Below are positions 1 through 25,148 of a DNA stretch of 36,027 nucleotides, piece by piece. The stretch spans positions 1 to 36,027 of the IMG/VR virus record IMGVR_UViG_3300020468_000027; one strand, given 5' to 3'. Source of the stretch: a virus. Each line of letters starts with the position of its first letter. Positions within the stretch are counted from its first letter, which is position 1. Position numbers and translations under genes: made by a program. The notes beneath the pieces were generated by a model. That model was not told where the DNA came from. It was given only the letters and a program-made list of their open reading frames with translations, and made no database searches.

Positions 1-248
1 TTGTTTTTTGATTTCTTTGGAATGTCCCAACCATCAGGTCCTGCAATAAATTCTACATTGTGACCTTTTGATTTTGGTAACCATGTAATAGTATCACCTA
101 CGTCTATTCGAGCAACGTCTTGACTGTAGACCATTTTTGCTCCATCGTCTCTTTTGTTTAACATGTCAATTGTCATGTCTGCTCCAAATACTGGAGTAAG
201 CGAAAACACTGCGAATAACAGTGTCATGTAAAGTCCTAATACTTTCAT
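1..248 (-). CDS. Pseudoazurin-like blue copper protein (3' end cut by window edge)
   Basis: Reading from the ATG at 248, the first 82 residues are visible. Residues 1-23 form a signal peptide (hydrophobic core, cleavage probably after VFGA), so the product is periplasmic. The mature start (DMTIDMLNK, then VGDTITWLP and KGHNVEFI) matches pseudoazurins closely. The His of GHNVE is the first type-1 copper ligand; the Cys, His and Met ligands lie beyond the window. Pseudoazurins are small electron carriers that take electrons from the cytochrome c/bc1 level and pass them to copper nitrite reductase or other terminal acceptors. An AGGAA ribosome site precedes the ATG, and a near-consensus sigma70 promoter lies upstream, which suggests early expression. 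It would be an auxiliary metabolic gene comparable to plastocyanin in cyanophages. Family call confident; host role inferred. Confidence 0.85.
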   Translation of the reverse strand, partial: MKVLGLYMTLLFAVFSLTPVFGADMTIDMLNKRDDGAKMVYSQDVARIDVGDTITWLPKSKGHNVEFIAGPDGWDIPKKSKN

Positions 249-277
249 CTCGATTCCTTTTTATGTTTGTATACTAC

Positions 278-309
278 TATATATTACGGGTTGACCCGAA
301 AGTCAACCC
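278..309 (-). promoter_or_regulatory. Sigma70-type promoter with inverted repeat over the -35, for the pseudoazurin gene
   Basis: The minus strand reads TTGACT (301-306), 17 bp, TATATA (278-283), a near-perfect sigma70 promoter. The -35 sits inside an inverted repeat, GGGTTGAC at 288-295 and GTCAACCC at 302-309, with a 6-nt loop. The repeat could be an operator or a terminator for the upstream micro-ORFs. Confidence 0.75.
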
Positions 310-320
310 TTTAAGATGTG

Positions 321-383
321 TTATTTCGTAGCAGGTTTTCTGCCACTTAAGAAGTCTGCTTCTTCATTATTATATGGCCACAT
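321..383 (-). CDS. 20-residue micro-protein (MWPYNN...)
   Basis: ATG at 383, stop TAA at 321-323; the peptide is MWPYNNEEADFLSGRKPATK. It follows the 39-residue ORF by 3 nt and is last in a run of four tightly packed small ORFs. From memory, very short proteins beginning MWP(Y/F) and rich in acidic residues occur in alphaproteobacteria. The stop is followed closely by the pseudoazurin promoter. No function can be assigned. Support comes from the packing and sequence character; it is too short for codon statistics. Confidence 0.5.
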   Translation of the reverse strand: MWPYNNEEADFLSGRKPATK

Positions 384-386
384 GGA

Positions 387-506
387 TTATTTCCAATCGT
401 CAGTCATTAGCTTCCTAGCTTCTTTATGCATACCCATTGAAGTAAGTACAGAAACCGCTCTAGCTCTACCTACTGCTTCAAACCATGTCATGATACATTT
501 CGCCAT
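387..506 (-). CDS. 39-residue small protein
   Basis: The ATG at 506 shares bases with the stop of the DUF3563-like ORF (TAATG arrangement), so translation is probably coupled. The peptide starts MAKCIMTWFEAVGRARA and ends KLMTDDWK. It looks like one amphipathic helix pair with many Ala and Arg residues; a second in-frame Met at residue 6 could be the true start. Function unknown. Confidence 0.55.
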   Translation of the reverse strand: MAKCIMTWFEAVGRARAVSVLTSMGMHKEARKLMTDDWK

Positions 507-664
507 TATATCCACCCTTTCAAGTTTGGATTAACTGTACCATATACAAGTGCTTTTTGCCTTTGTTCTAGGTCTACTAAATCTACTGAATTTGCCAAGT
601 AAGTTTCGATTGGGTCTTTTGTCTCCCAACCAAATTTAAATAGTTTTGAAAAAAAGTTTTTCAT
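506..664 (-). CDS. DUF3563-like small protein, 52 aa
   Basis: ATG at 664 overlaps the TGA of the preceding 51-residue ORF (ATGA), so the genes are coupled. The core ETYLANSVDLVDLEQRQ resembles the signature of DUF3563 proteins, short proteobacterial proteins of unknown function with a Y-L-x-x-S-x-D-L-x-D-L-E pattern. The N-terminus is basic and aromatic (MKNFFSKLFKFGW). No signal peptide is obvious. The family call is from memory of the motif. Confidence 0.6.
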   Translation of the reverse strand: MKNFFSKLFKFGWETKDPIETYLANSVDLVDLEQRQKALVYGTVNPNLKGWI

Positions 665-816
665 TTATTCGGTCCTTTGCCATATTGTTTAATGTGATTA
701 TATGCGAATACCCAATCGTTTGCGTATTCAACTCTAGCCCATATGCGAATGTCGTTATCTTTGAGTTTCTTACTCTCAAACATACTCACAAGGCCTCTGT
801 ATAGCTTTCTTGCCAT
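661..816 (-). CDS. Small basic protein, 51 aa (MARKLYRGL...)
   Basis: The start at 816 is chosen over a longer frame beginning at 855 because AGGAG lies 6-7 nt before this ATG and the upstream part falls inside the structured leader. The protein is basic at its N-terminus (MARKLYRGLVSMFESKK) with an aromatic C-terminal half (IWARVEYANDWVFAYNHIKQYG). It is the first gene of the micro-ORF run and is separated from its late promoter by a leader of about 130 nt. Function unknown. Confidence 0.65.
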   Translation of the reverse strand: MARKLYRGLVSMFESKKLKDNDIRIWARVEYANDWVFAYNHIKQYGKGPNK

Positions 817-950
817 AGTAGTCTCCTTTGTTTTAATGATGCTTGAGGGAAGCAATACCCCGGTCTATTTCCGGCGTCACTAAGTCTTTCCCTAGTGCCA
901 CTCATTTTTTCCGAGCTGAGGTCGCTCTGGGGAACTGAACTGTTCACTGA
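817..950 (-). ncRNA. Structured 5' leader RNA with predicted pseudoknot, upstream of the micro-ORFs
   Basis: Between a CTAAATA late box (951-957) and the ATG at 816 the minus strand folds into several helices: GAGC/GCTC (913-916 with 924-927), CACTA/TAGTG (878-882 with 893-897) and CCGG/CCGG (860-863 with 871-874). The ten-base loop of the CACTA hairpin can pair with GGGAA/TTCCC at 847-851, an H-type pseudoknot close to the ribosome site. The segment is more GC-rich than its surroundings. A riboswitch or translational control element is possible, but I do not recognise a named class. Confidence 0.45.
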
Positions 951-957
951 TATTTAG
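951..957 (-). promoter_or_regulatory. Late promoter box CTAAATA for the leader and micro-ORF operon
   Basis: CTAAATA on the minus strand, the form of the T4-type late box found in marine T4-like phages. Transcription would begin about 6 nt downstream, at the 5' edge of the structured leader. Confidence 0.55.
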
Positions 958-1010
958 TACAGAAAGTCTGTCCTAAGCTATGCGTTTACCACATATCGTG
1001 TGCGTAAAAT

Positions 1011-2105
1011 TTACACACCTGCTCCTGATAATGAAATTTGTGCAAATACTTCGCCGGGTCTTGATTTACTTGGAACAACACTAATGCCAAAACTTTCAAT
1101 TTGATTTGCTTGTCGCATTGTAATAATATCCTGTCCAGTTCTACCCATGGCTGTTTTTTGACGTAAGAAACTAATTACTAGATATGCATCAAAATTATCT
1201 CTAGCTTTGTACCATTCAAAATTTTGTCTTACATATTCAAATTCAATTTCATCTCTATTTTCTGTGTTTGCTAGTTTGTTAGCCATTGCAGTGCCATAAC
1301 TTCTAAATTGTGGCTCCCACAATGCTTTTCCTATTTCTAGTCTGAGTGCTTTGCTATCTGGATTATTAATAGGAGCTTCAGCATTCAGGGCATTGACAAA
1401 TGGACCTATACCAATAGTACCACCCGCTTTAGCTTTAATTCCTGCTATCATGTTTGGCAGTCTATCTTCATACTTGAGTAGTATACCCATTTGTTGTTCT
1501 TGTTGTGGACCACCATCTCCTAGTCTACCACCTTTTGCACTATCACTTGCCGCTGATTTAACTTCAACATCACCAATACCTTCTATTTCAGTATCACCAG
1601 CACCTTCGGCTAGTCTGATCTTATTGCTGAGCATAGCAAGTGCATATTCTCCTGGGCCTTTTGCTTTGGCTTGAACACCATATCCTTTTAGAGCATCAAA
1701 GGCTTTGATAGCAACTGCATCACCACCAAATATTGCATTAAAGCTATTAATAGGTTTTGCGAGTTCGTTGATATTAATTACACCTCCACTTTCAAGTTTT
1801 TTAAGGAAGGCATTCATTGCATTGTAATCGCTGTCTACTCTACTGATAATTTCTGCTACATTTGTTCTATGCTTTTGTAGAGCCGCATCATTCATGTATT
1901 CATCTTTGGTAGGTACTACGAAACTGTTTACAATATTATTGTTATATGATTCTGTATTTAGAACTTTCCAAATACGATCAAGTATTGCCGCCTGTTTTTC
2001 ATCAGCCGCATCTAGTCCACTAATAGTTTTAATGATGTTGGCTTTTTCCTGAGAAAGATCTTCATACTCAGTCAAGCAGTAATTTATGAATTGTTTTGCT
2101 TTCAT
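1011..2105 (-). CDS. Probable PD-(D/E)XK nuclease-like phage protein, 364 aa
   Basis: The middle of the protein carries a GPGEYALAML segment (about 155-164) and, about 20 residues later, GIGDVEVKSA, then GGRLG. An upstream E followed by a D-x-(D/E)-x-K strand matches the PD-(D/E)XK nuclease core as seen in type II restriction endonucleases. N- and C-terminal regions are helical and unrecognised. The ATG at 2105 sits 5 nt from an ATAAATA late box with no ribosome site, so the mRNA is probably leaderless and late. A late nuclease could act in genome processing or packaging, or the fold may be structural. Function inferred only from the motif. Confidence 0.5.
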   Translation of the reverse strand: MKAKQFINYCLTEYEDLSQEKANIIKTISGLDAADEKQAAILDRIWKVLNTESYNNNIVNSFVVPTKDEYMNDAALQKHRTNVAEIISRVDSDYNAMNAFLKKLESGGVININELAKPINSFNAIFGGDAVAIKAFDALKGYGVQAKAKGPGEYALAMLSNKIRLAEGAGDTEIEGIGDVEVKSAASDSAKGGRLGDGGPQQEQQMGILLKYEDRLPNMIAGIKAKAGGTIGIGPFVNALNAEAPINNPDSKALRLEIGKALWEPQFRSYGTAMANKLANTENRDEIEFEYVRQNFEWYKARDNFDAYLVISFLRQKTAMGRTGQDIITMRQANQIESFGISVVPSKSRPGEVFAQISLSGAGV

Positions 2106-2110
2106 AAAAC

Positions 2111-2117
2111 TATTTAT
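2111..2117 (-). promoter_or_regulatory. Late promoter box ATAAATA, 5 nt from ATG
   Basis: ATAAATA, then GTTTT, then the ATG at 2105. T4 late promoters place this box at -13 to -6, so +1 falls on the A of the start codon. No Shine-Dalgarno sequence can fit. Confidence 0.7.
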
Positions 2118-3229
2118 GCATTAAATTGGTTGAACACTTGATTGACCTGTTGAGTACATCTAACAAACGTTGTACATTTGGGCATGTCTTTGATACGTTT
2201 TGCTCCAATGTATGTACAAGTAGATCGCACACCACCTAAAATTTCTGTCAAGGTATCTCCAACATTGCCTTTGAATGGTATGGATACAAGTTTGCCTTCT
2301 GCTCCTCGGTAACCATCTTTACGGGTTCCATGTACAGACATAGCCGCATCTGAACTCATACCATAAAATTCTACAAAGTTTTGTTCTGCAAAATGTGGAA
2401 CATAAGTTCCGCTTTCGGCTTTATATGCTCCTCCAGTTGCAGTATGCTTTGTTGTAATAGTTCCGCCACCTTCTGAATGTCCAGCCAACATACCTCCAAG
2501 CATAACAAAATGTGCTCCGGCTCCAAAGGCTTTGCTTACATCTCCTGGATATACACAACCTCCGTCAGCAACAATATGTCCGCCAATTCCGTTGGCGGCA
2601 TCGGCACATTCAATAATACCTGAAAGTTGTGGTACACCAACACCTGTCATTGTCCTAGTTGTACATACTGATCCAGGACCAATACCACATTTAACAATGT
2701 CAGCGCCTTTAATAATAAGTTCTTCTGTCATCTCTGCTGAAATAACATTTCCTGCAATAATTGTTTTGTCAGGATAAGCATCTCTTAATCTAGCAATAAA
2801 TTCTGCATAGTTCTCATGGTATCCATTGGCTACATCAACAGTAATAAACTTTATATCAGGATACATTTCCAAAACTGTTTTCATTGTAGCATAATCGGGT
2901 GCATCAGGATCCCATATCACTCCAGTGCCTGTGCAAACACTTAGGTACTTCATTTTTACACCTTGACTTTGTTCTTTCCAGTCGTCGACTGAGTAGTGTT
3001 TTCTCATCACAGTGAGCATCTTATGATCTTGCAACACTTTAGCCATTTCAAATGTACCAACGCCGTCCATGTTGCTTGCCATGATCGGTATGCCTGTCCA
3101 TTCGTTACCACTGTTATGAAATTTAAATGTACGGGTTAAGTCTACATCTCGTCGACTCTCAAGTTTACTCCGTTTGGGTTTAAACAGGACATCTTTATAG
3201 TCCAGCTTAACATCATCTTCTATTCTCAT
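2114..3229 (-). CDS. guaC: GMP reductase
   Basis: The 371-residue protein aligns along nearly its full length with bacterial GMP reductase, from MRIEDDVKLDYKDVLFKPKRS to the C-terminal CTYIGAKRIKD and NQVFNQF. GMP reductase converts GMP to IMP with NADPH and releases ammonia. The catalytic loop GPGSVCTTR with its Cys, the preceding GADIVKCGIG and the glycine-rich VADGGCVYPGDV and FVMLGGMLAGH phosphate-binding stretches are all intact. It lacks the CBS domains of IMP dehydrogenase. An insertion of about 20-25 residues relative to the E. coli enzyme (347 aa) lies in the mobile flap before FYGMSS. GAGG precedes the ATG. A TATAAT at the end of clpS could be a -10 element. Its likely role is recycling host guanine nucleotides for DNA synthesis alongside nrdAB. 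Confidence 0.93.
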   Translation of the reverse strand: MRIEDDVKLDYKDVLFKPKRSKLESRRDVDLTRTFKFHNSGNEWTGIPIMASNMDGVGTFEMAKVLQDHKMLTVMRKHYSVDDWKEQSQGVKMKYLSVCTGTGVIWDPDAPDYATMKTVLEMYPDIKFITVDVANGYHENYAEFIARLRDAYPDKTIIAGNVISAEMTEELIIKGADIVKCGIGPGSVCTTRTMTGVGVPQLSGIIECADAANGIGGHIVADGGCVYPGDVSKAFGAGAHFVMLGGMLAGHSEGGGTITTKHTATGGAYKAESGTYVPHFAEQNFVEFYGMSSDAAMSVHGTRKDGYRGAEGKLVSIPFKGNVGDTLTEILGGVRSTCTYIGAKRIKDMPKCTTFVRCTQQVNQVFNQFNA

Positions 3230-3253
3230 TTGAACCTCTATGTTATGTTAATA

Positions 3254-3553
3254 TTATAGTTCTTCAAGATCCATAGCCAGTGGAAAACCTGCTCCACGAC
3301 TTATTGCTATGCTTTCTGCTATTTTTTGTTCTGCTATTTCGTAGTAGTATACACCAGCAACACCTTTTCCATCTTCGTGTACTTTTTGTGTTATCTCGTT
3401 TGCAGTTTCTTGTGTATGATTAAACACAGATTTTAACAAGTCTATAACAAATTCCATAGGTGTGCTATTGTCATTAAACAATATGACACTATACTTTTTT
3501 GGCTTTGAAATATCCAATCTATCAGTTTGTTTTATTTCGACTTCTGTATCCAT
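3254..3553 (-). CDS. clpS: ClpS, N-degron adaptor of the Clp protease
   Basis: The 99-residue protein has a short variable N-terminus and the ClpS core KPKKYSVILFNDNSTPMEFV, followed by the helix with KVHEDGKGVAG and the C-terminal IAEQKI segment. ClpS delivers proteins with bulky N-terminal residues to ClpAP. The Asn-Asp pair, the gatekeeper Met (TPMEF) and the pocket His (KVHEDG) are present, but the third acidic residue of the usual NDD is Asn. The start at 3553 is chosen because the longer GTG-started frame begins inside a GC-rich hairpin. The ATG is 5 nt from a GTAAATA late box, so it is probably leaderless. The phage likely uses it to steer host proteolysis. Confidence 0.88.
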   Translation of the reverse strand: MDTEVEIKQTDRLDISKPKKYSVILFNDNSTPMEFVIDLLKSVFNHTQETANEITQKVHEDGKGVAGVYYYEIAEQKIAESIAISRGAGFPLAMDLEEL

Positions 3554-3558
3554 ACTAG

Positions 3559-3565
3559 TATTTAC
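3559..3565 (-). promoter_or_regulatory. Late promoter box GTAAATA, 5 nt from the clpS ATG
   Basis: GTAAATA, CTAGT, then ATG at 3553. Same 5-nt geometry as five other genes here. The first base differs from the T4 consensus, so it is a weaker call. Confidence 0.55.
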
Positions 3566-3575
3566 CCAATCAAGA

Positions 3576-3593
3576 GGGGGGATTTCTCCCCCC
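3576..3593 (-). terminator. GC hairpin between hsp20 and clpS
   Basis: GGGGGG, a six-base loop and CCCCCC form a strong hairpin 8 nt past the hsp20 stop. No clear U-tract follows on the minus strand (TCTTGATT), so it may act as a pause or 3'-end stabiliser, or as a weak terminator before the clpS late promoter. Confidence 0.55.
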
Positions 3594-3601
3594 ACTTTAT
3601 T

Positions 3602-4036
3602 TTATTTGATAGCGATTGTCTTAGGTTTCTTTTCCTCTGGAATGATTCGCTCTAGTTCAATATAAAGCATACCATTTTCCATTCTAGAACCTTGCACTAC
3701 AATATCGTCTGTAAGTGTAAAGTTACGTTTGAAACTTCTTTGGGCAATGCCTTTGTGTAGCCATTCCCAACCTTTTGGCTCTACTTCACCATCTGGTTTG
3801 TGTTCAATAGTAAGTACACCTTCCGCGACTGTGATCTCTAAATCCTCTTTTGCAACGCCAGCTAGGGCAATTTCAATTTGGAATTTTTCACCGTCTTTTA
3901 CAATGTTGTAGGGAGGGTATCCGCCTGTGCTATTTTGATTGTGTTCGATGTAGTTAAACATGTTGTCAAATACTCTATCGAAGCCTACTGCATAAGGCGT
4001 TAGTTTATTAATGTCGAGGGTTGTTAATCTATTCAT
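3602..4036 (-). CDS. Small heat-shock protein (Hsp20/IbpA family)
   Basis: At 144 residues it matches the IbpA type. It has an N-terminal region with YAVGFDRVFDNMF, an alpha-crystallin domain from about residue 40 (PPYNIVKDGEKFQIEIALAGV, then LTIEHKP, GIAQRSFKRNFTL), the conserved ENGMLYIELER strand and a short tail with an I-x-I-like motif (KTIAIK). These ATP-independent chaperones hold unfolding proteins in the cytoplasm. AAGGAGA precedes the ATG by 8 nt. Hsp20 genes are common in marine T4-like phages and may support capsid assembly. Its leader overlaps the 3' part of the tmRNA-like RNA. Confidence 0.92.
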   Translation of the reverse strand: MNRLTTLDINKLTPYAVGFDRVFDNMFNYIEHNQNSTGGYPPYNIVKDGEKFQIEIALAGVAKEDLEITVAEGVLTIEHKPDGEVEPKGWEWLHKGIAQRSFKRNFTLTDDIVVQGSRMENGMLYIELERIIPEEKKPKTIAIK

Positions 4037-4098
4037 GTGCTATCTCCTTTATTAAGCAAGATTAATGTATGTAGACCCATCATTGGCATCTACATTTT

Positions 4099-4105
4099 TA
4101 TTTAT
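4099..4105 (-). promoter_or_regulatory. Late-type box ATAAATA upstream of hsp20
   Basis: ATAAATA on the minus strand, followed by a leader of about 57 nt with AAGGAGA before the hsp20 ATG. It lies in the A-rich stretch just ahead of the putative tag start of the tmRNA-like RNA, so it may be a promoter, part of the RNA, or both. Confidence 0.5.
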
Positions 4106-4108
4106 CAT

Positions 4109-4132
4109 TTGGGGATTAACCATGATCCCCAA
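4109..4132 (-). other. Strong hairpin TTGGGGAT/ATCCCCAA
   Basis: An 8-bp perfect stem with an 8-nt loop. As part of the tmRNA-like RNA it would stand where pseudoknot 1 precedes the A-rich tag lead-in. It could instead terminate an RNA starting at 4489, although only an A-rich sequence follows it on this strand. Confidence 0.5.
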
Positions 4133-4495
4133 CGAGCTTATTAAGTAGCTACCCTTTTCTTGTATATAGTTTCCCGTTCCAATTTCTTTTCGGGTTTGTT
4201 TTGTACTTATGTGTATTTCTTGTCTCCACACATATTCTTATCTGTAGTGTCTGTCTGTGCCCAATCGCACGACACGTTAAAGTGAGTAGGGAGGACTTGG
4301 GTTTCACCTCCAACCAGGTCGACCGAGATACCATTCTCAAAATCCCCTAGAACTTACTTCCGCTCGGGAGAGCGATGTGATTCTCAGTCGCTAGACCTCG
4401 AACCTGGCTACCACGCCTAAGCAATCAAGTTATGCCTCTTGGTCAGACACATTTCCTTGCACTACTCTAACAAGACCGTCGCCTTATTAATACTT

Positions 4496-4524
4496 AATAT
4501 AATACTTTTTGTTTGCGAAGTCAA
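4496..4524 (-). promoter_or_regulatory. Sigma70-type promoter for the tmRNA-like RNA
   Basis: TTGACT (4519-4524), 17 bp, TATATT (4496-4501). The -35 overlaps the stop codon of the upstream gene. Start of transcription expected near 4489, at the 5' end of the structured RNA. Confidence 0.75.
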
Positions 4525-5285
4525 CCTTTTTTTGCATCTTTTTTTAGTTTTTTATCAATCATTTGACCAACTGCTTTATAACCATTATCAAATTTACTCA
4601 GAGAACTAAATCTGCTTGCTTCAGTTATACGTTGTGTTTCTTTATCATATGGTCTCTGACGTGCGATTAGTTTTTCTCTTTTAAAAGGTATAAGCCAAAG
4701 CCAAGGTTCACCTTGTTTTATTTGTATTGTTTTATTCATCATATGCTTTGGAAAAACCACAGGCACATTTATTTCATGTGAATGATCAGTTCTTATACTT
4801 CCTGCTAACGGTTGTATATCAGTAAAATGATACATCATAGGAAAACAATAACAACTATAACCCATTGGTGTTTTGATACGCCACGGTACATGTGGCTTCA
4901 AACAATTACCCCATTTGGATTGTTCATTTTTTGGTAACCACTTTAAATATTGATCTGGATGATGCCATTCCCAACCAAATTGATCAGTTTCGTAAGCACA
5001 TTCGTATTGATATGAACCATCGTCATTGAAATGTATTTCAAAGTCTGCCCACATAGGAACAACATATCCTGTTGTCATAAACTCAGGAAACACAGGACAT
5101 TTTCTTATAGTAGGTTTGCTGAGATCTTTATCTATATTGCGTGGTACATTCTTAAACCAATCTGGAAAGAAGTTACTAGCAGGTTGAGGCCACAAATAAT
5201 CCAACAAAGGGTCATTGAGAGGATCAAATACACTCCAAAACTCCATGTCTTGTTGTGGCTCTTTTTGCCAAAACTTCCAGTTCAT
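4521..5285 (-). CDS. Conserved marine-phage protein, DUF6065-like, 254 aa
   Basis: A Trp- and Pro-rich protein with the pattern PDWFKNVPR (about 42), IRKCPVFPEFMTTGYVVPMWADF (about 60-82), PWRIKTPMGYSCYCFP (about 132), VNVPVVFP-like (INVPVVFP, about 172) and QIKQGEPWLWLIPFKRE (about 187). This arrangement recalls the DUF6065 group seen in marine phages and bacteria, possibly a beta-sandwich or cupin-like fold. No catalytic residues can be assigned and there is no signal peptide. It follows rpsU by 1 nt, so it belongs to the infC-rpsU transcript and runs straight into the tmRNA promoter. Family name from memory; function unknown. Confidence 0.6.
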   Translation of the reverse strand: MNWKFWQKEPQQDMEFWSVFDPLNDPLLDYLWPQPASNFFPDWFKNVPRNIDKDLSKPTIRKCPVFPEFMTTGYVVPMWADFEIHFNDDGSYQYECAYETDQFGWEWHHPDQYLKWLPKNEQSKWGNCLKPHVPWRIKTPMGYSCYCFPMMYHFTDIQPLAGSIRTDHSHEINVPVVFPKHMMNKTIQIKQGEPWLWLIPFKREKLIARQRPYDKETQRITEASRFSSLSKFDNGYKAVGQMIDKKLKKDAKKG

Positions 5286-5286
5286 T

Positions 5287-5529
5287 TTACCAGTTTTCTT
5301 TATTTTTTTCTTGTTCTTTTATCCAACGTTTACGAGCTTGTTGTTTCTCTCTACGTTTTTTAGCACTTGGCTTTTCGTAGTACTCGTTTTTACGCATGTC
5401 TTTAATCATGCCTTCGTTGTTAAGTAATTTTTTAAGTTTTCTGACAGCACGAGTTACATCATTGTTTCGTACTTCAACATATAGTCCACGTCTATCGTTA
5501 ATATCAGAACTCATTTTAAATCTTTTCAT
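5287..5529 (-). CDS. rpsU: Ribosomal protein bS21
   Basis: The 80-residue protein has the S21 core GLYVEVRNNDVTRAVRKLKK, then NEYYEKPSAKKRREKQQARKRW, a basic helix that contacts the 3' end of 16S rRNA near the anti-Shine-Dalgarno. About a dozen residues (MKRFKMSSDINDRR) precede the usual start. Its ATG overlaps the stop of infC (ATGA), so the two are coupled. bS21 is among the ribosomal proteins most often found in phage genomes, including pelagiphages. A virus-made S21 could replace the host copy and bias initiation toward phage messages. Identity confident; purpose inferred. Confidence 0.92.
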   Translation of the reverse strand: MKRFKMSSDINDRRGLYVEVRNNDVTRAVRKLKKLLNNEGMIKDMRKNEYYEKPSAKKRREKQQARKRWIKEQEKNKENW

Positions 5530-6062
5530 TCTTTCCTCATCAAGATACCGATCATACGGTTTCCGTTTATAGCGGGTTTAGTTTCCCAAACACCAATTTT
5601 AATTTGTTCAATAATACGATCCATTACTACAAAGCCTTGTTGCTTGTTTGCATTTTCTCTGCCTTTGTAACGAATTTGACATTTTACTTTGTTGTTTTTT
5701 TCTAAAAATTTTGAAATGTTTTTACATTTCGTTTCAAAGTCGTGTTGATCGATACCTAATCTAAATTGCATTTCTTTGACTACGATTTGATTTTCACGTT
5801 GCTTTTTAGCAGTTTCTTTTTCTTTACGTTTTTGTTCGTAGAAATATTTATTAGCATTTAATAGTTTTGCTACTGGTGGATTACCATCAGGACTAATAAC
5901 TACTAAATCTGTTTTATGTTCATCTGCTAGTGCAAGAGCTTGTGCTTTGCTCATCACACCCATTTGACCAGTTTCCCCTACCAGTCTAAGCTGGGAAAAC
6001 CTTATTGCGTCATTGACCAAATAATCGTTTGGTTGACGTCTGCTTCTATTAAACTGTTTCAA
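5526..6062 (-). CDS. infC: Translation initiation factor IF-3
   Basis: A full-length 178-residue IF3 (E. coli has 180). The N-domain runs from VNDAIRFSQLRLVG to NANKYFYEQKRKEK, the linker is Lys-rich, and the C-domain includes KEMQFRLGIDQHDFETKCKN and KVKCQIRYKGRE, ending with GNRMIGILMRKE. IF3 binds the 30S subunit, checks start codon and initiator tRNA, and prevents premature 50S joining. There is no ATG at the right place: the frame opens at TTG (6062), inside the last codons of the upstream gene. E. coli infC also uses a non-canonical start (AUU) for autoregulation. The only SD-like sequence is a weak GGA. Overlap with rpsU makes a two-gene initiation unit. Confidence 0.93.
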   Translation of the reverse strand: MKQFNRSRRQPNDYLVNDAIRFSQLRLVGETGQMGVMSKAQALALADEHKTDLVVISPDGNPPVAKLLNANKYFYEQKRKEKETAKKQRENQIVVKEMQFRLGIDQHDFETKCKNISKFLEKNNKVKCQIRYKGRENANKQQGFVVMDRIIEQIKIGVWETKPAINGNRMIGILMRKE

Positions 6063-6477
6063 GACTATCCAACACTATTTCTGCGTAATCTTCAACACTT
6101 TCATATATATTATATTCTCTAGATGTATTCAAAAGTTGTTTCATACCTTTCCTCTTGTTTCCATTATTACTAATTATAATAATATTATTATCATTGTGCA
6201 TTAATGCACATACTATTCCTAGTTCACTAATACTGTCTAAATCAATATAGATTGTATCACTAAATCTCATCATGCTTACAACCCAGGCACTGTTCTTATC
6301 ATTTACATCACCACCAGGATGACATAATGTAATTGGTACAGATTTAAACATATTTTCATATAACAATTCTACATCTCGTAGAAATTGTTTTTTATTGCTA
6401 ATGACAGATATAATAGGGCCGTTATCTGGTAAAAGCATATCTGGTGGAGTAACTGTATAAATTGGATTTTCCCTCAT
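6049..6477 (-). CDS. Conserved phage protein of unknown function, 142 aa
   Basis: I do not recognise a family with confidence. The protein is acidic, with alternating hydrophobic strands (ISVISNKKQFL, VPITLCHPGGDV, DTIYIDLDSI, NIIIISNNGNKR) and a C-terminal helix ending DYAEIVLDSL. The strand order and the Gly-Asn-rich turns suggest a Rossmann-like alpha/beta fold, perhaps nucleotide-binding, but there is no Walker or other diagnostic motif. It precedes infC and overlaps it by 14 nt, so it sits in the same transcript as the initiation factors. Confidence 0.6.
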   Translation of the reverse strand: MRENPIYTVTPPDMLLPDNGPIISVISNKKQFLRDVELLYENMFKSVPITLCHPGGDVNDKNSAWVVSMMRFSDTIYIDLDSISELGIVCALMHNDNNIIIISNNGNKRKGMKQLLNTSREYNIYESVEDYAEIVLDSLETV

Positions 6478-6486
6478 GGGGTTTAC

Positions 6487-8394
6487 TTATTCCTCTTTTC
6501 TTTCGTTCTCTTCAGCTTTTTCTTTAATACTTTTTATTTTAATACTTTTAATCTTTTTTTCTACAGATGGTGCTTTTGGTTGTGCCGCTAACATACCATC
6601 CGGTGAATATAACTTCCTACCTCTTCTTTGTGCTAGTTCATCTTCAGTGAGCTCTTCATCAGTTCTAGTATCAGTATAAGGGTTATATTCCTCTTTGTCA
6701 ACTTCTTTTTCAGAATCTGATTCAGATTCAATTTCTAATTCTTTAGCTACTTCCTCTAATACATCAGGATCAGCTTTTTCTAGTAATTCTTCAATCTCTT
6801 TATCATCATTGAATTCTTCTTCTATCACTTCTTCTGGAACATCTTCGAATGTATCATCTCCCATAACTTCCTCCATCTTTTCGTCTGGAGTTGGTTCTTT
6901 TTTAGGTTCTGGCTCCGGTTGTTTGTCTCCATCATTCTCACCCATAGCATCGACATCTTGTCTTCTCCACTCAAATGTATATTGACTTGCAATAAGCAAT
7001 AGCACTGCTAGTGGATCAAATACAAATATAATAGTAATTATCACCCAACGTACTGCTTTTTCAAGTAAATCCTTTTCAACATTTTCACCGTATATTAGTT
7101 CTGCGATATATTTAATAGGTCCTACTTCAGCTTCAAGTTTTCTATACTCTGCTTCTAGTTTATACTTCTCCTCAGTAAGTACATCTATTTCTGCATTTGC
7201 TTCTTTAATCTTTGCGTTCTGTTCATCAATAATAGATTCAACATCATCGCCGCCGTCAACTTTTATTTTTTCTCTCAGTTGTTGTATTAGTTCATTACTG
7301 GCTTTGACCTGATCATCTGCACTTTTTCTAATTCTAGCAATCTCATCTCTGGCTGTAGCAATTATTGGAGATTCAGTTGCTCGAACATCGTCAATCTTAG
7401 ACAGCATTTGTACTTCTCTGTCTTTTAATGCAGGTATTTGTTTTTCTCTTATATCTTTTACAATAGAACCAAGTCTTGTACGTTCACTGTCAACTGTAGT
7501 TTTTGCTTCAATTCTAATCTCTGCTATTTGATTTTGTAATTCACTTATACGTTCTTTCTGTAAATTAATCCAAGTATTTGCACTACGTCTTGTGTTTGGT
7601 CCTGCTTGTCCGTCTGGATTTGAACCTATTGTTAGTTGTGCTTGTTTAATCTGTTCACTTTCACCACTAGCAATTTGACCTTCTACTTTGTTAATTGTTT
7701 CATTTATATTGGCAATTTGTGCTTGTATTGGTTCTACTGCACTATCGTCTACATTAAGACCAGCTATTTTTTCTTCGTATTCTTTTGCACTTGTTTCTAA
7801 TCTGACTATCTCATCTTTAATATTGGATAGCTGGTCTTCGTAGGGTTTGGTTCTATCACTGTCTGCACTTCTGGCATCAGCTATAATTTTTTGTTGTTCA
7901 TCTATTGCAGGTTGTATTCTAGTGTATGCTGAATCAATACGTTGTTGTTCTTTTTCAATTTGTGCATTAATATCATCATTGCGATTACCTGTACTGCTTT
8001 CAGCTTTTTCAATCTTTTGTTCAGCACGATCAATAATGCTTTGAAATCTTGCAAGTTCCGTTTCTATTCTTTGTACTTGCTCTACACTTTCTTTGCTTGC
8101 TGAAGTTTGCTCAATATGAGCTTTACTAAGGAAACCAAAGATACCCATACTGGTAATAAACATTAATACGACTACGGCTATAGCAAGATAAGTCCTTAAC
8201 CACCATACTGTTCGTTGCCAATACCTATGTAACCATACTGCGGTTACCAATTTACCAATTTCTAATGCTCCACCCATTATCATAATAGGTATAGCCGCGG
8301 CGGCAAATATAGCAACTAAACCTGCTATACTATAATATATTGCTACTGCTGAAATTGATAAGGCTGTTATAAAAACTAATAAACCTAAAAACAT
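6487..8394 (-). CDS. Large membrane-anchored coiled-coil protein, 635 aa
   Basis: Two N-terminal membrane segments (about 3-23 and 25-45) and a third (about 68-90, AIAVVVLMFITSMGIFG) precede a coiled coil of about 340 residues rich in Glu, Lys, Gln and Ala with heptad spacing. A further membrane segment follows (about 443-465, FVFDPLAVLLLIAS), then a strongly acidic tail with runs of Glu and Asp and a basic C-terminus. The coil would span or line the periplasm or cytoplasm between membrane anchors. Similar proteins occur in marine T4-like phages without assigned function. Possible roles are remodelling of the infected-cell membrane, superinfection exclusion or timing of lysis; none is shown by the sequence. 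It abuts the SNase-like gene. Confidence 0.75.
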   Translation of the reverse strand: MFLGLLVFITALSISAVAIYYSIAGLVAIFAAAAIPIMIMGGALEIGKLVTAVWLHRYWQRTVWWLRTYLAIAVVVLMFITSMGIFGFLSKAHIEQTSASKESVEQVQRIETELARFQSIIDRAEQKIEKAESSTGNRNDDINAQIEKEQQRIDSAYTRIQPAIDEQQKIIADARSADSDRTKPYEDQLSNIKDEIVRLETSAKEYEEKIAGLNVDDSAVEPIQAQIANINETINKVEGQIASGESEQIKQAQLTIGSNPDGQAGPNTRRSANTWINLQKERISELQNQIAEIRIEAKTTVDSERTRLGSIVKDIREKQIPALKDREVQMLSKIDDVRATESPIIATARDEIARIRKSADDQVKASNELIQQLREKIKVDGGDDVESIIDEQNAKIKEANAEIDVLTEEKYKLEAEYRKLEAEVGPIKYIAELIYGENVEKDLLEKAVRWVIITIIFVFDPLAVLLLIASQYTFEWRRQDVDAMGENDGDKQPEPEPKKEPTPDEKMEEVMGDDTFEDVPEEVIEEEFNDDKEIEELLEKADPDVLEEVAKELEIESESDSEKEVDKEEYNPYTDTRTDEELTEDELAQRRGRKLYSPDGMLAAQPKAPSVEKKIKSIKIKSIKEKAEENERKEE

Positions 8395-8767: not shown

Positions 8768-8774
8768 TATTTAT
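8768..8774 (-). promoter_or_regulatory. Late promoter box ATAAATA for the SNase-like gene
   Basis: It overlaps the stop codon of the upstream kinase gene. The leader is about 20 nt with an AAAGGA ribosome site, a conventional late arrangement. Confidence 0.6.
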
Positions 8775-9472
8775 TGTGGACGTTGGTCCGCTAGCCAGGA
8801 TTTTGCTTGTGGTTTACGAGGTGGCGAGCTAATGAATCTCCTAATGGCTTTTTCAACTGCCTCAAAGTTTTCCTTGCGGTTTGGATCTTCCAAACCACCA
8901 CTATTATCTACTATATAGAAATTTTGGTTACCAAACATCTGTTGGAACTTCATCATATTATCTTGTACTGAATGCCACATTTTTATTACCATCTCATCTG
9001 GCAACTGACGTGGTCGCATTTTATTTCTTTCTTGTGCTACATCTATATTAGTGTTCACAAACACCATCATAGTATCATAGCCTAAGTCTTCTAATTTCGC
9101 TTTTTGATCTTGTGTCTTTTCGACATCTTTGGCTGTACCGTCAATAATTAATCCTAGTCTACCGTCTAAGTAATTTCCTTGACGTAGTTTTGTTAAACGT
9201 TTTGCTTTTTCTCTAGCTTCTTGTCCTTGTGGACTTGCTACCACTTCAGGATCGCTTAGATCCAATGGTTCTGGTTTAACCATACTAGCTAATTTTTCAT
9301 ATACCTCATCACTGTTAACTATTTTTAAACCAGTAGTATCTTTACCCATTAGGTTACTTACGACAAAACCCTTGCCGGAACCTGGACCGCCTGCAAGGAA
9401 TATTGCTTTAAAAATGTGAGGATCGTTTGGACCCTCACTCAAGTTATTATTCATAATTTCATTTATTAACAT
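8771..9472 (-). CDS. P-loop kinase, zeta-toxin/polynucleotide-kinase-like, 233 aa
   Basis: The Walker A motif is in AIFLAGGPGSGKG (about 22-34). It is followed by KIVNSDEVYEKL, an acidic substrate site like that of zeta toxins and polynucleotide kinases, then GLIIDGTAKD as the Walker B region, and an Arg-rich lid near QERNKMRPRQLPDE. The C-terminus is basic. Members phosphorylate sugars, nucleotides or nucleic-acid ends. Related proteins in marine T4-like phages lie among structural genes. The ATG is 5 nt from an ATAAATA box with no ribosome site, so it is a probable leaderless late message. Met residues at 7 or 8 are alternative starts. Substrate unknown. Confidence 0.75.
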   Translation of the reverse strand: MLINEIMNNNLSEGPNDPHIFKAIFLAGGPGSGKGFVVSNLMGKDTTGLKIVNSDEVYEKLASMVKPEPLDLSDPEVVASPQGQEAREKAKRLTKLRQGNYLDGRLGLIIDGTAKDVEKTQDQKAKLEDLGYDTMMVFVNTNIDVAQERNKMRPRQLPDEMVIKMWHSVQDNMMKFQQMFGNQNFYIVDNSGGLEDPNRKENFEAVEKAIRRFISSPPRKPQAKSWLADQRPQ

Positions 9473-12153: not shown

Positions 12154-14684
12154 GCTTGGAGAAAGCTGAGTGAAGCACTCCAGGTAACGTTTTTACCCGA
12201 AGATCCTTTTGCTCTTACACGGAAAGTATTGGAAATTATTTCTGCACTTACAGTCCAACCAGAATATGCTAAAGTCCAATTACTGTTCTGATCCGGACTT
12301 AATTCGCCACTTGAAATAGATGTGTTAGCAGTATATGTATTCAATTCATATTCTACTGTATCACTTGCATTGTAACTAGACATTGGATCCCAACTTGATA
12401 CACCTATATCACTTGTACCACTTCTTTGATAATCTATTTTAGTGTTTGTACCCACAATACTAAAGTTACCGCCTGTATTGGTTACCATACCTTCAATTTT
12501 AAATGCTTGTTTTTCACCCGTGGTTGCTACACCTAATGCTTTTACTTCAAAGAACCATGTTTTGTCTGATGGGGGTTCTGGAGTTGTGCCATTAAATTGC
12601 AATATAGTTGCAGTTCCGTCTGTAGTGTTTAACGGATCACTTGGTATACCGCCCATGCTTGATAGGTTAACTGTATTGCTATTGTTTGTTAGAGTTACAG
12701 TTCCGTCTGTACTTGTAATACTCTTAAATGCAAAATTATCTCCAGTCCTTGCACTGAATATTGTAGACCCTGCTCCTAAATTACTGGCTGTAATACTATC
12801 AGTAATTGTTACATCATCTGTGCCTTGTGTGGCTGTAATACCTGTGCCACCTATAATAGTTCTAAATCTTAAATCAGAGCCAAATGTATCTTTAAATATT
12901 TGACTACCAGATCCTACACTTGTGCCTCCAGTAATACCTGTACTGCTTGTAGTGGTTAGCAAAGACTTCCATGTGGTAGTATCACCAAAATATGCTTCAA
13001 TACTATGGCTATCTGAATTATATCTAATCTCACCTATTTCTGTACTTGGTCTTTGAGCAGTAGTTCCTACTGGTATTTTTAGTGCGGCTGTACCTGGTAT
13101 TCTTGTATTGTCTTCTAGTTCTACTTTAATGTTGCCACCAACACCATCACCGTTACTTACTTTAGTTTGACCTGTTACACCTTCAACACTTCTAGCTCTA
13201 CTTACACCGGCATCTTTAACAATTAATCCACTTCCAGTTTCAACATTAAGATTGTTTAAAAATTCAAGTAATGTACTTGTTGCCTGCTGATAATCAGCAA
13301 GTGTACCAGTAGTACTAGTTGCTGGATCTTTCCTAGTGAATACAGTAAGGATATCACTTCTAACTACGATATCATTTTCATTTGTTGACAAAGCTAATTG
13401 AGCCGCTTCACTGCCAACAACATATAAATTACTTCCTGATCCTGCAAAGTTTTGTATAACAGTTGTACCAGATACAGTTGATCCACTTCCGGATACATTA
13501 CTTGTATCAGTTGAAAATCCACCTGCATTATATCCTGGACTATTTGGTGTTTGAGGATCTGCACCTGCACTTTGCTCAGTTGTTCTTTGTTGATGGTTTG
13601 TTGTAAATCCGATTACATTACCGCAGTAATCATAAACAGGAGTTTGTGTATCTATATTTGGAGTTGGATCGTCTGCTTGCATAATAATATCCAAGAGCTC
13701 TTGATCCAATAATAAATGGAAAATATTAGGAAATTCTACAACTTCTTCACCAAATACCCGGTTACCATCTGCATCATATTGGTGTCCTACATTTTGTTGT
13801 GCAGTACTTGAGCCTAGTGAAAACTGTACAGGATATCCGCCTAATCTATCATATAAACTTTTTAGTTGGCTTGTTAGTCTGGCATTACCTGCAATACCAC
13901 CACTTGCTCCATTGTGCATTACACCTATTTGTGCATTACAACCTGGATCACTTTGTGAAAACTGACTACCACCTCTTGCAAAACTACCACCAATATCATT
14001 TTCAAAAGAAATAAGACCTGAAATTTGAGATCCAATACCTTTAACATCGTCAAGTATTGCATCAAGTTCTGATTGTAAAAAACTACCATTTGTTACTTTG
14101 GACATGTTACTGGCTAGATTACCCAGCAAGCCACCATTGAATACGTTTGAATTAAAACCACTAGAACTAATACATGCACACATATCTGCATCAGATATGC
14201 TACCAATAGCATCAGTTATTGACTTGCCCGCTCCTAAAAAACTACCCATTGCACGTTCAAGCATATTTGGGATAGCAATAGGATCTACAGGTTGACTACA
14301 AAAGTTAATCATATTAGCTACGTTTTGTGCTTCAGCTAATACGCCATTTAACCTACCCAATACTTGGTCAAGTTTTGTGTGATCCATAAATGATTCTAAA
14401 TCACCTTGTAGTTCTGTTAAAGCATCATTGAGTTCACTTTGTAAGCCTTGAATACCAAGCAAAGCGCCAATATTACTATGCAAACATAATTGTACGTTAG
14501 GTAATTTTAGTCCATTACCTGCTAGTAATCCACATAGTAGTTCTCTGAGTGTAAAACTGTATTCAGCACTAACAACACCACGTAGAGCATCAGTACCAGC
14601 GGCTTGTGTTCCACTAATATGATGTCTAGTATCTAAGTAATCGTTTGCACTAGATAAACCTTGACTAAAATCTCTGAATGACAT
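12150..14684 (-). CDS. Large structural protein, probable tail fibre or baseplate-associated, 844 aa
   Basis: Residues 1-350 form a helical, Leu-rich domain (FTLRELLCGLLAGNGLKLPN, LGRLNGVLAEAQNVANMI) with several Cys and Gly patches. From about 390 the sequence becomes low-complexity Ser/Thr/Gly, then beta-rich repeats typical of trimeric fibres. PVGTTAQRPSTEIGEIRYNSD, followed by an EAYFGDTTTWKSLL-type motif, is the segment common in phage tail-fibre proteins. The C-terminal 150 residues (SFLQA end) may be a receptor-binding head. It overlaps the stop of the PAAR-like gene by 1 nt, and that neighbour points to the baseplate or tail spike. No chaperone or peptidase domain seen. Confidence 0.7.
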   Translation of the reverse strand: MSFRDFSQGLSSANDYLDTRHHISGTQAAGTDALRGVVSAEYSFTLRELLCGLLAGNGLKLPNVQLCLHSNIGALLGIQGLQSELNDALTELQGDLESFMDHTKLDQVLGRLNGVLAEAQNVANMINFCSQPVDPIAIPNMLERAMGSFLGAGKSITDAIGSISDADMCACISSSGFNSNVFNGGLLGNLASNMSKVTNGSFLQSELDAILDDVKGIGSQISGLISFENDIGGSFARGGSQFSQSDPGCNAQIGVMHNGASGGIAGNARLTSQLKSLYDRLGGYPVQFSLGSSTAQQNVGHQYDADGNRVFGEEVVEFPNIFHLLLDQELLDIIMQADDPTPNIDTQTPVYDYCGNVIGFTTNHQQRTTEQSAGADPQTPNSPGYNAGGFSTDTSNVSGSGSTVSGTTVIQNFAGSGSNLYVVGSEAAQLALSTNENDIVVRSDILTVFTRKDPATSTTGTLADYQQATSTLLEFLNNLNVETGSGLIVKDAGVSRARSVEGVTGQTKVSNGDGVGGNIKVELEDNTRIPGTAALKIPVGTTAQRPSTEIGEIRYNSDSHSIEAYFGDTTTWKSLLTTTSSTGITGGTSVGSGSQIFKDTFGSDLRFRTIIGGTGITATQGTDDVTITDSITASNLGAGSTIFSARTGDNFAFKSITSTDGTVTLTNNSNTVNLSSMGGIPSDPLNTTDGTATILQFNGTTPEPPSDKTWFFEVKALGVATTGEKQAFKIEGMVTNTGGNFSIVGTNTKIDYQRSGTSDIGVSSWDPMSSYNASDTVEYELNTYTANTSISSGELSPDQNSNWTLAYSGWTVSAEIISNTFRVRAKGSSGKNVTWSASLSFLQA

Positions 14685-14986
14685 TAACTTCCTCCGCCTG
14701 CTCTTACATTCGGGCTGGCACTACTTGCATTTGGAGAACAATGAGCGCCTCCCAATGGAGGGCACAAACTATCAGGTGCTGAAGGATCAGCTTGTAGTAT
14801 TACAGGAATATTTCCTGCACGAACTTTTCCAACAGTTTCAGTTGCCTTAAGAGCTCCTGCACCATGCGAATTAGTATCACCTTCAACACTTATAAATCTA
14901 TTGTTAACTCTGACATTTGTGATTCTAGTCACGGTACTTGCACCGCAGGTTCTACTATCTCGTTCTCTGTGTACTGGTCTTACCAT
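14684..14986 (-). CDS. PAAR-like spike-tip protein (T4 gp5.4-like), 100 aa
   Basis: The protein begins MVRPVHRERDSRTCGAS and has repeated short beta elements (VRVNNRFISVEGDTNSHGAG, VGKVRAGNIPVIL) followed by LCPPLGGAHCSP. The Pro- and Gly-rich texture and the His and Cys residues suited to bind a metal fit PAAR proteins, which sharpen the tip of the tail spike. T4 gp5.4 is the same size class. The ATG lies 5 nt from a perfect TATAAATA late box without a ribosome site. The next gene is fibre-like. PAAR repeats are degenerate here, so the call is moderate. Confidence 0.55.
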   Translation of the reverse strand: MVRPVHRERDSRTCGASTVTRITNVRVNNRFISVEGDTNSHGAGALKATETVGKVRAGNIPVILQADPSAPDSLCPPLGGAHCSPNASSASPNVRAGGGS

Positions 14987-23977: not shown

Positions 23978-24262
23978 TTATCTCCGTCTATTCAAACGTT
24001 TAAGAGCTTTACTCGCTGGATTAAATCTTTTGGTACGCTGTGCTTTACGAGCCATACGCTTGCCCATTCTAGCTTTGGTTTTTTTCAATGTTAAACGAGC
24101 TTTCAAATTGATTGGAGCACTACATTGTCCAGGTTTACTTACAATCCTACCTCTGCGTTGACCCACAACACAACGATATTTGCGAGTAAGTTTGTTGCCT
24201 TTTCTCGCCCATATAAGTTGTGCTTCGACCACGGTGCTATTATCGAGTTCATTTAAGTTCAT
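23978..24262 (-). CDS. Small highly basic conserved phage protein, 94 aa
   Basis: The N-terminal third is a small beta domain with two Cys (KYRCVVGQRRGRIVSKPGQCSAP). The C-terminal half is a long Lys- and Arg-rich helix (KTKARMGKRMARKAQRTKR, then NPASKALKRLNRRR). I recall the same layout in other marine T4-like phages. It may be a DNA-condensing or capsid-internal protein. The ATG is 5 nt from an ATAAATA late box with no ribosome site, hence a probable leaderless late message. Confidence 0.65.
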   Translation of the reverse strand: MNLNELDNSTVVEAQLIWARKGNKLTRKYRCVVGQRRGRIVSKPGQCSAPINLKARLTLKKTKARMGKRMARKAQRTKRFNPASKALKRLNRRR

Positions 24263-24747: not shown

Positions 24748-25148
24748 TGGATATCGGTGTGTTTTTTAAAACACACGTTAATTGGACCATTGGTTTCGAA
24801 ACACTTACTGCTTAGTTCTGCTGTCTCTTCTAGTCCAGTATATACAGGTATTCCATTGCAATCTTGTAATAAAACACTCATATCTTCTAATACCTGCCCA
24901 TGCTCTATACTAAACTGTAATCTCCATACAGTATGTAGTCCATGATACTGTTTTCCGAACCCAAAATTTACTATATCTTGTGCCATAATCACATCAACAG
25001 ATGGATTTAAAGGTTGACTACGCAAGCCAATAGTTTGTACAAGTGTATTGAGATTTTGTTGTTGGTAAAACTTAATATGGTTTCTATTGTGTTTGGATTC
25101 GTTAGTGTTGGTTATATCAACAAGAGTATAAGCGACATAATTTGTCAT
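24744..25148 (-). CDS. Conserved marine T4-like phage protein, 134 aa
   Basis: NHIKFYQQQNLNTLVQTIGLRSQP is followed by QYHGLHTVWRLQFSIEHGQVL, then LQDCNGIPVYTGLEETAEL and NVCFKKH. I associate this arrangement with marine T4-like phages, function unknown. The product is beta-rich and probably a structural or assembly protein. The last codons form a perfect hairpin (24757-24776, GTGTGTTTT/AAAACACAC), which may double as a transcription terminator. Start overlaps the upstream stop by 4 nt. Confidence 0.6.
   Translation of the reverse strand: MTNYVAYTLVDITNTNESKHNRNHIKFYQQQNLNTLVQTIGLRSQPLNPSVDVIMAQDIVNFGFGKQYHGLHTVWRLQFSIEHGQVLEDMSVLLQDCNGIPVYTGLEETAELSSKCFETNGPINVCFKKHTDIH

Follow-up and report, generated by a model that had tools for sequence, protein, structure and literature searches.

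A published count of the proteins encoded within ten genes of phage ribosomal protein bS21 gives 127 for Hsp20 and 50 and 47 for two Clp proteases (Chen et al. 2022, PMC9723584). IF3, S21, and transfer-messenger RNA (tmRNA) have been listed in huge phages (Al-Shayeb 2020, PMC7162821; AP-J-162, PMC11242549), and for the Sinorhizobium jumbo phage AP-J-162, IF-3, S21, Hsp20, Clp proteins, and a tmRNA have been published (PMC11242549). Here, we analyzed a linear 36-kb virus record (IMG/VR record IMGVR_UViG_3300020468_000027, 36,027 nucleotides; hereafter, the window), in which the genes for IF3, bS21, Hsp20, and ClpS all lie on the minus strand and span 2.8 kb, together with the RNA that precedes hsp20. 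An earlier note, made by reading the DNA alone, had described these four genes and a candidate tmRNA between them as an island of five, and knew of no described phage with such a set. Besides AP-J-162, the Sinorhizobium phage Phosso contradicts the latter point, since its genome combines an alpha-type tmRNA with IF3, bS21, Hsp20, and ClpS, as in the clade of the window. It differs from this clade in that its genes are spread over approximately 16 kb.

The gene orders of the described phages resemble that of the window in parts. In Phosso, IF3 stands beside an AAA ATPase, and the order is AAA-IF3, bS21, and Hsp20-TK-ClpS (TK, thymidine kinase). The Agrobacterium phage Atu_ph07, which encodes IF3, Hsp20, and ClpS, shows the orders AAA-IF3 and Hsp20-TK-ClpS. 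Both phages share with the clade of the window a ROSE-type leader at hsp20, but, unlike the window, have no match to manA RNA. The Pseudomonas phages PA5oct and MIJ3 (Arenbergviridae) encode a ClpX-like AAA protein, bS21, an IbpB-type Hsp20, and ClpS on one strand within approximately 3.2 kb, in the order AAA-bS21-hyp-QueD-IbpB-ClpS; they share a ROSE-like leader, but differ through the lack of IF3 in the island, the lack of a tmRNA match, and an inserted QueD-like gene. Finally, the Pelagibacter phage HTVC008M has the order CobS-bS21-hyp-Hsp20, with one small gene between bS21 and Hsp20, a tmRNA elsewhere, a ROSE-like leader, and late genes of a leaderless type, and gave no IF3 or ClpS match in our searches. 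The island of the window is a real and well-conserved variant of a phage neighborhood that is known in parts. The four protein assignments of the earlier note were borne out by Pfam and NCBIfam matches, and the features are as follows:

5526..6062, minus strand: infC, IF3 of 178 aa with both the N and the C domain (the listed TTG start at 6062 is uncertain)
5287..5529, minus strand: rpsU, bS21, 80 aa
4496..4524, minus strand: sigma70-like promoter TTGACT-N17-TATATT (10 of 12 matches) at the head of the hsp20 leader, before the manA RNA
4280..4489, minus strand: manA RNA (RF01745)
4099..4104, minus strand: TAAATA box of the T4 late-promoter type, with a predicted +1 at 4093, where the ROSE hairpin begins
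4031..4095, minus strand: ROSE-type element with the hairpin GTAGATGCC-AATGAT-GGGTCTAC, followed by the anti-Shine-Dalgarno stretch ATCTTGCTT opposite AAGGAGAT, which immediately precedes the hsp20 ATG
3602..4036, minus strand: hsp20, IbpA-type small heat shock protein, 144 aa
3559..3564, minus strand: TAAATA box located upstream of the clpS ATG at a distance of exactly 5 nt, without a Shine-Dalgarno (SD) sequence
3254..3553, minus strand: clpS, N-degron adaptor, 99 aa from ATG 3553 (open frame to 3595)

The least expected result was that a ROSE-type element precedes hsp20 in most of the related phages. In the window, this element matches ROSE_3 (RF02523) with 35.6 bits against a gathering score of 43 (E 1.1e-5 for 4000-4560 and 1.7e-7 for the record), and of 34 records, 10 have a ROSE_3 match in this position (E 9e-8 to 2e-5). 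Shared with the proteobacterial ROSE elements of ibpA/hsp20 are the hairpin GAU-G-CC/GGGUC, the anti-SD U(U/C)GCU facing AGGAG, and the position directly before the small heat shock protein start; the phage versions differ in their sub-gathering scores, in a hairpin that starts at the predicted late-promoter +1, and in the manA RNA that may precede them. After 236 leaders had been reduced to 136 distinct 90-nt stretches, an anti-SD [CU][CU]GC facing GGAG directly before AUG was present in 121 of the 136 phage leaders, including that of the window, and 10 further leaders have a small open reading frame (ORF) between the element and hsp20, which brings the ROSE-type leaders to 131. The anti-SD motif together with a GCC-loop-GGG seed occurred in 95 of the 136 leaders and in none of 197 control genes with an SD sequence (Fisher p 8e-51, a value that is too small because the sequences are related). 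No paper on ROSE elements in phages was found in the open-access full texts, the coverage of which is incomplete, and novelty is not proven. In L010, L012, L015, and L044-L048, the ORF between ROSE and hsp20 comprises approximately 65 codons (MQAQYFNNLVDQIHTQTKTFL...), so that ROSE precedes this ORF instead of hsp20.

The upstream hairpin of the element covaries strongly. As counted by script, 54, 53, and 45 of 54 distinct sequences retain its pairs 3, 4, and 5, respectively, compared with 38, 23.5, and 23 in shuffles, values that 0 of 1,000 shuffles reached, and the exchanges include AT, TA, GC, and CG (pairs 1 and 2 were forced by the selection). The core of the SD hairpin is nearly invariant, with weak covariation outside of it (33 of 55 vs. 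25 shuffled for x-2/+4, and 50 vs. 45 for n5/-2). Furthermore, a covariance model, R1, was built from 15 leaders belonging to the clade of the window; the window's own leader is among them, and its match at 4033-4093 is therefore a training sequence. Applied to 64 held-out loci (271 kb), R1 gave 46 matches at E<=1, all of them at the start of hsp20 or ibpA, among them Atu_ph07 (7e-5), Phosso (1e-4), S-B64 (2e-4), S-CAM8 (4e-3), Syn33 (0.025), PA5oct (0.065), HTVC008M (0.11), and P-SSM4 (0.16), as well as the cellular loci L269 (0.037) and L267 (0.23). Within 366 kb of clade loci, which partly include training sequences, 20 of 21 matches lie at the operon start. L267 and L269 are contigs of metagenome-assembled genomes labeled as alphaproteobacteria, and their SD hairpin is almost the same as that of the window, which points to a common origin with cellular ibpA leaders.

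Upstream of the ROSE element, a sensitive Rfam search over 4000-4560 revealed a manA RNA that the filters of whole-record scans had hidden (58.7 bits, gathering 55.2, E 1.8e-14, positions 1-192 of 192). Located upstream of hsp20 on the same strand, it makes up the larger part of the supposed tmRNA at 4037-4520, which accordingly consists of a manA RNA followed by the ROSE-type element directly before hsp20. Other copies were identified in L008 (75.6 bits), L010 (56.0 bits), and seven more loci (39-51 bits); most copies in the clade score under the gathering cut-off. Earlier work had already reported manA RNAs both in T4-like cyanophages and ahead of genes for ibpA chaperones (Weinberg 2010, PMC2864571), and the copy found here is likewise a structured element of the 5' untranslated region (UTR), but stands in tandem with a ROSE element. 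In L012, L043, L044, and L046, a conserved inverted-repeat segment of approximately 100 nt, reaching from near ATACACACC to near GTGTGTAT, lies between the manA RNA (or the promoter) and ROSE; it is possibly another RNA element, and in L044 it occurs without manA.

The chaperone downstream of this leader shows a corresponding conservation. Escherichia coli IbpA binds its own 5' UTR and represses its own translation, for which R93 and the aromatic Y34 are needed (PMC10474464). Arginine occupies the place of R93 in 143 of 147 phage Hsp20s, and Y or F that of Y34 in all 147; the window's Hsp20 keeps the residues matching Y34, R93, and R97. In the E. coli IbpA sequence used for this comparison, Y34, R93, R97, and K98 agree with the published numbering (PMC10474464).

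The reading that we favor, with a probability of roughly 0.6, is that of a conserved neighborhood of a marine T4-like myovirus clade with an IbpA-like chaperone under RNA-level feedback. During infection, phage IF3 and bS21 would probably join host 30S subunits, and the Hsp20-ClpS unit would be transcribed separately from IF3-bS21: the sigma70-like promoter may read through the manA RNA and the ROSE element, and the transcript of the T4-late-type promoter would begin at the ROSE hairpin. ROSE and an Hsp20 with the RNA-binding arginine of IbpA would most likely keep hsp20 translation low, until release by heat or, more plausibly at sea, by protein aggregation pulling Hsp20 off its own mRNA. ClpS could then deliver N-degron substrates to ClpAP, with ClpA being phage-encoded in one relative and otherwise presumably the host's, and the ribosome-rescue RNA would be a separate gene farther downstream. 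Few host-like genes are as common in marine T4-like phages as hsp20, which was matched in 508 phage records, and we know of no described regulation for phage hsp20. The joint retention of a ROSE-type leader and the RNA-binding arginine across phage families provides a testable rule, and this ROSE/IbpA pairing is the result most worth testing; a phage chaperone may report the state of protein folding during infection.

Gene order was analyzed in relatives gathered by two IMG/VR scans, one anchored on IF3 and one on ClpS. Both returned the order SleB-kinase-nuclease-TM635-hyp142-IF3-bS21-[hyp254]-RNA-Hsp20-ClpS wherever the flanks reach, which applies to nearly all relatives, and this agreement confirms that the order is more than chance. 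Pairwise distances of IF3, bS21, Hsp20, and ClpS correlate (r 0.70-0.87), so that within the clade these genes are neither scattered nor independently gained. There are two exceptions: in L051, an RNA-Hsp20-ClpS cassette lies behind capsid-type genes, with no IF3 or bS21 upstream, and in the distant L027, ClpS is located 7 kb farther on. The L051 cassette (122-7188) comprises manA, ROSE, Hsp20, and ClpS and directly follows genes that, from sequence reading, resemble T4-type portal, protease, scaffold, and capsid genes. The phage itself has replication genes of the T4 type (DnaB-like helicase, primase, and class Ia ribonucleotide reductase), and no near DNA match to the window was found among annotated phage records.

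Two other explanations of the leader have to be weighed against RNA-level feedback. A degenerate or unusual form of permuted tmRNA at 4037-4520 was suggested by a frame ending in ANDGSTYINLA near the 3' end of this RNA, where the tag of a permuted tmRNA would sit, and there is a weak tmRNA_permuted match in 4000-4560 (10.3 bits, E 8.4, cut-off 47). However, ARAGORN found no tmRNA anywhere in the window, the manA and ROSE elements account for the segment, the tag-like peptide overlaps the ROSE hairpin, length changes of 2 nt disrupt its frame in L010, L012, and others, most of the segment is missing from short leaders, and genuine tmRNAs lie elsewhere in relatives. We therefore rejected this assignment as extremely improbable; two regulatory RNA families can mimic a tag frame in a sequence read by eye. 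The ROSE element could, in turn, be a classical RNA thermometer, which melts on warming and lets ribosomes enter, with no role for Hsp20 binding. Its motif and place are those of proteobacterial ROSE, the loci L267 and L269, labeled as alphaproteobacterial, carry the nearly identical SD hairpin, and in folding models, SD accessibility grows with temperature in L012 and L024. In contrast, the SD sequence of the window's leader is predicted to be open at all temperatures and cheap to open, and sea temperatures change slowly compared with infection. The energy modeling is not supportive of a thermometer function, and we consider a pure thermometer unlikely. Since folding indicates no special occlusion, we infer that protein-assisted feedback is favored over it.

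Several observations weigh against RNA-level feedback as well. The hsp20 start is not more occluded than the starts of other phage genes (at 20 C, median opening costs of 6.2 vs. 6.8 kcal/mol; p 0.48), and that of the window opens at a low cost of 4.3 kcal/mol, compared with 7.5-10.7 kcal/mol for cellular ibpA-type leaders in the same folding, a nearest-neighbor model that excludes the G.G pair and base triples of ROSE. ROSE_3 stays below the Rfam gathering score in every phage, an Rfam scan of 20 cyanophage and other loci gave no match at E<=1, several cyanophage matches to R1 are weak singly (E 0.02-0.8), and the anti-SD is missing in five HTVC008M-like leaders. Short leaders, e.g., those of L016 and L018, do without the manA RNA, which is therefore optional, and R93 may be kept for other reasons. 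Furthermore, the whole neighborhood could be an inherited gene order in which each gene acts on its own, without a joint function in translation and proteostasis. In line with this, the distances of the unrelated neighbors nuc115 and hyp142 correlate with the four genes equally well, the L051 cassette occurs without upstream IF3 and bS21, and IF3 stands apart from Hsp20-ClpS in Atu_ph07 and Phosso. Because nuc115 and hyp142 correlate as well, the data establish co-inheritance and not the joint programme that the earlier note had proposed. However, the adjacency of Hsp20 and ClpS and the proximity of bS21 and Hsp20 recur across phage families and in published counts (PMC9723584), and we regard mere inherited order as a possible, but not the probable, explanation. 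Going beyond our preferred reading of a chaperone under RNA-level feedback, we tentatively propose that an IbpA-ROSE switch, which senses aggregation via its own leader, might have been inherited across several T4-like phage families and might here be joined with manA, ClpS, IF3, bS21, and a nearby tmRNA in one infection-stage programme of translation quality.

While the tmRNA is not part of the island, so that five members within 2.8 kb are not found, genuine tmRNAs do occur in those relatives that reach far enough. In 14 relatives (L003, L006, L008, L012, L018-L024, L036, L043, and L045), ARAGORN and Rfam identified permuted alpha-type tmRNAs on the strand of ClpS, 3.5-9.4 kb farther downstream, with scores of 73-152 bits and tags of the form ANDN..ALAA or AMAA, e.g., ANDNYAPEMALAA and ANDNFAPSGYALAA. 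This places genuine phage tmRNAs near IF3, bS21, Hsp20, and ClpS. The tmRNA of L027, which is positive in ARAGORN and scores 40.5 bits, below the cut-off, lies upstream. Clade loci without a tmRNA stop less than approximately 6 kb past ClpS, and the window likewise ends too early; we infer that the window's own phage has one. No SmpB was found in 19 records, and the SmpB of the host would therefore be needed. The permuted tmRNA type and the similarity of the ROSE elements hint at an alpha-like host; no match to an exact degenerate pattern of the tag was found when 385 genomes from the class to which L269 belongs were searched.

The promoter signals suggest two start points for the hsp20 leader, a sigma70-like one before manA and a T4-late-type one at ROSE. 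Sigma70-like matches in the window are not above chance in number; among 30 RNA gaps from the window and its relatives, 29 contain a sigma70-like box with 15-19 nt spacing. TAAATA lies 11-18 nt before the hairpin GCC in 71 leaders, and within 40 nt in 72 of 102, compared with 6.7 expected; the +1 was placed by T4 late-promoter geometry. For clpS, the TAAATA box 5 nt before the ATG and the missing SD sequence predict a leaderless late transcript. By the same geometry, all genes with this arrangement would have leaderless mRNAs; in relatives, the 5-nt spacing occurs at 81 sites, compared with at most 9 at any other spacing. The spike was also found in HTVC008M, but not in the examined stretches of T4, P-SSM4, Atu_ph07, and Phosso. 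In the window, the genes at 1011-2105, 3254-3553, 8771-9472, 14684-14986, 23978-24262, and 25145-26020 start in this manner, without an SD sequence. A connection of leaderless late genes with phage IF3 was rejected, as HTVC008M has such genes but yields no IF3 match, and Atu_ph07 and Phosso, which do encode IF3, lack them.

The protein identifications are well supported by curated models and solved structures. IF3 matches both Pfam domains (N, E 2e-23; C, E 2e-25) and TIGR00168 (149 bits, cut-off 60) and aligns to solved IF3 chains over its full length (E 4e-36). bS21 (Pfam E 6e-17; TIGR00030 59 bits, cut-off 29) has an N end that is approximately 15 residues longer than that of cellular bS21 and matches bS21 in solved ribosomes. 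For Hsp20 (Pfam E 7e-18), the best NCBIfam model is IbpA, with 123 bits, under the equivalog cut-off of 212. ClpS (Pfam E 1e-25) is closest to the solved chain 3dnj (E 8e-18). Among the residues known for the N-degron pocket and the ClpA contact of ClpS, N34, D35, M40, V43, and H66 (E. coli numbering), which include the main pocket residues, are kept in an alignment with 3dnj and E. coli ClpS, and D36 is replaced by N. Its start is probably ATG 3553 and not GTG 3595, because the additional 14 codons cover a hairpin and the TAAATA box that is conserved in relatives. This G/C-rich hairpin between hsp20 and clpS (3576..3593, minus strand), suggested to be a terminator or processing site, keeps its pairing while its sequence varies (GGGGGG/CCCCCC, GGGGGCGG/CCGCCCCC, and GGAGGCC/GGCCTTCC). 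As for the partners of ClpS, a 172-kb relative of L012 (L257 = G008 61000-65000, 966-3203) encodes a ClpA-like ATPase (746 aa, 868 bits, equivalog cut-off 993) in addition to ClpS; ClpA-like double-AAA proteins and ClpP are present in MIJ3, Atu_ph07, Phosso, and SCTP-2, and ClpP in G014 and G018.

Three further genes lie within or next to the island:

6049..6477, minus strand: hyp142, which overlaps the start of IF3 both in the window and in its close relatives
4521..5285, minus strand: hyp254, uncharacterized 254-aa phage protein (phrog_7084) between bS21 and the RNA
2114..3229, minus strand: GMP reductase (NCBIfam NF003470, 496 bits, cut-off 397), a conserved downstream neighbor

hyp254 is missing from this place in most relatives, and its AlphaFold2 model was unusable (predicted local distance difference test score, pLDDT, of 38). 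hyp142 is modeled as a three-layer alpha/beta fold (pLDDT 86) that only weakly matches a putative nucleoside deoxyribosyltransferase (TM 0.6-0.7). GMP reductase mostly follows ClpS in relatives, but correlates with the island proteins only at r 0.30-0.42 and is not co-inherited with them. The copy of the window is only approximately 50% identical to those of all relatives, compared with 70-99% for the island proteins of the closest relatives, and looks exchanged.

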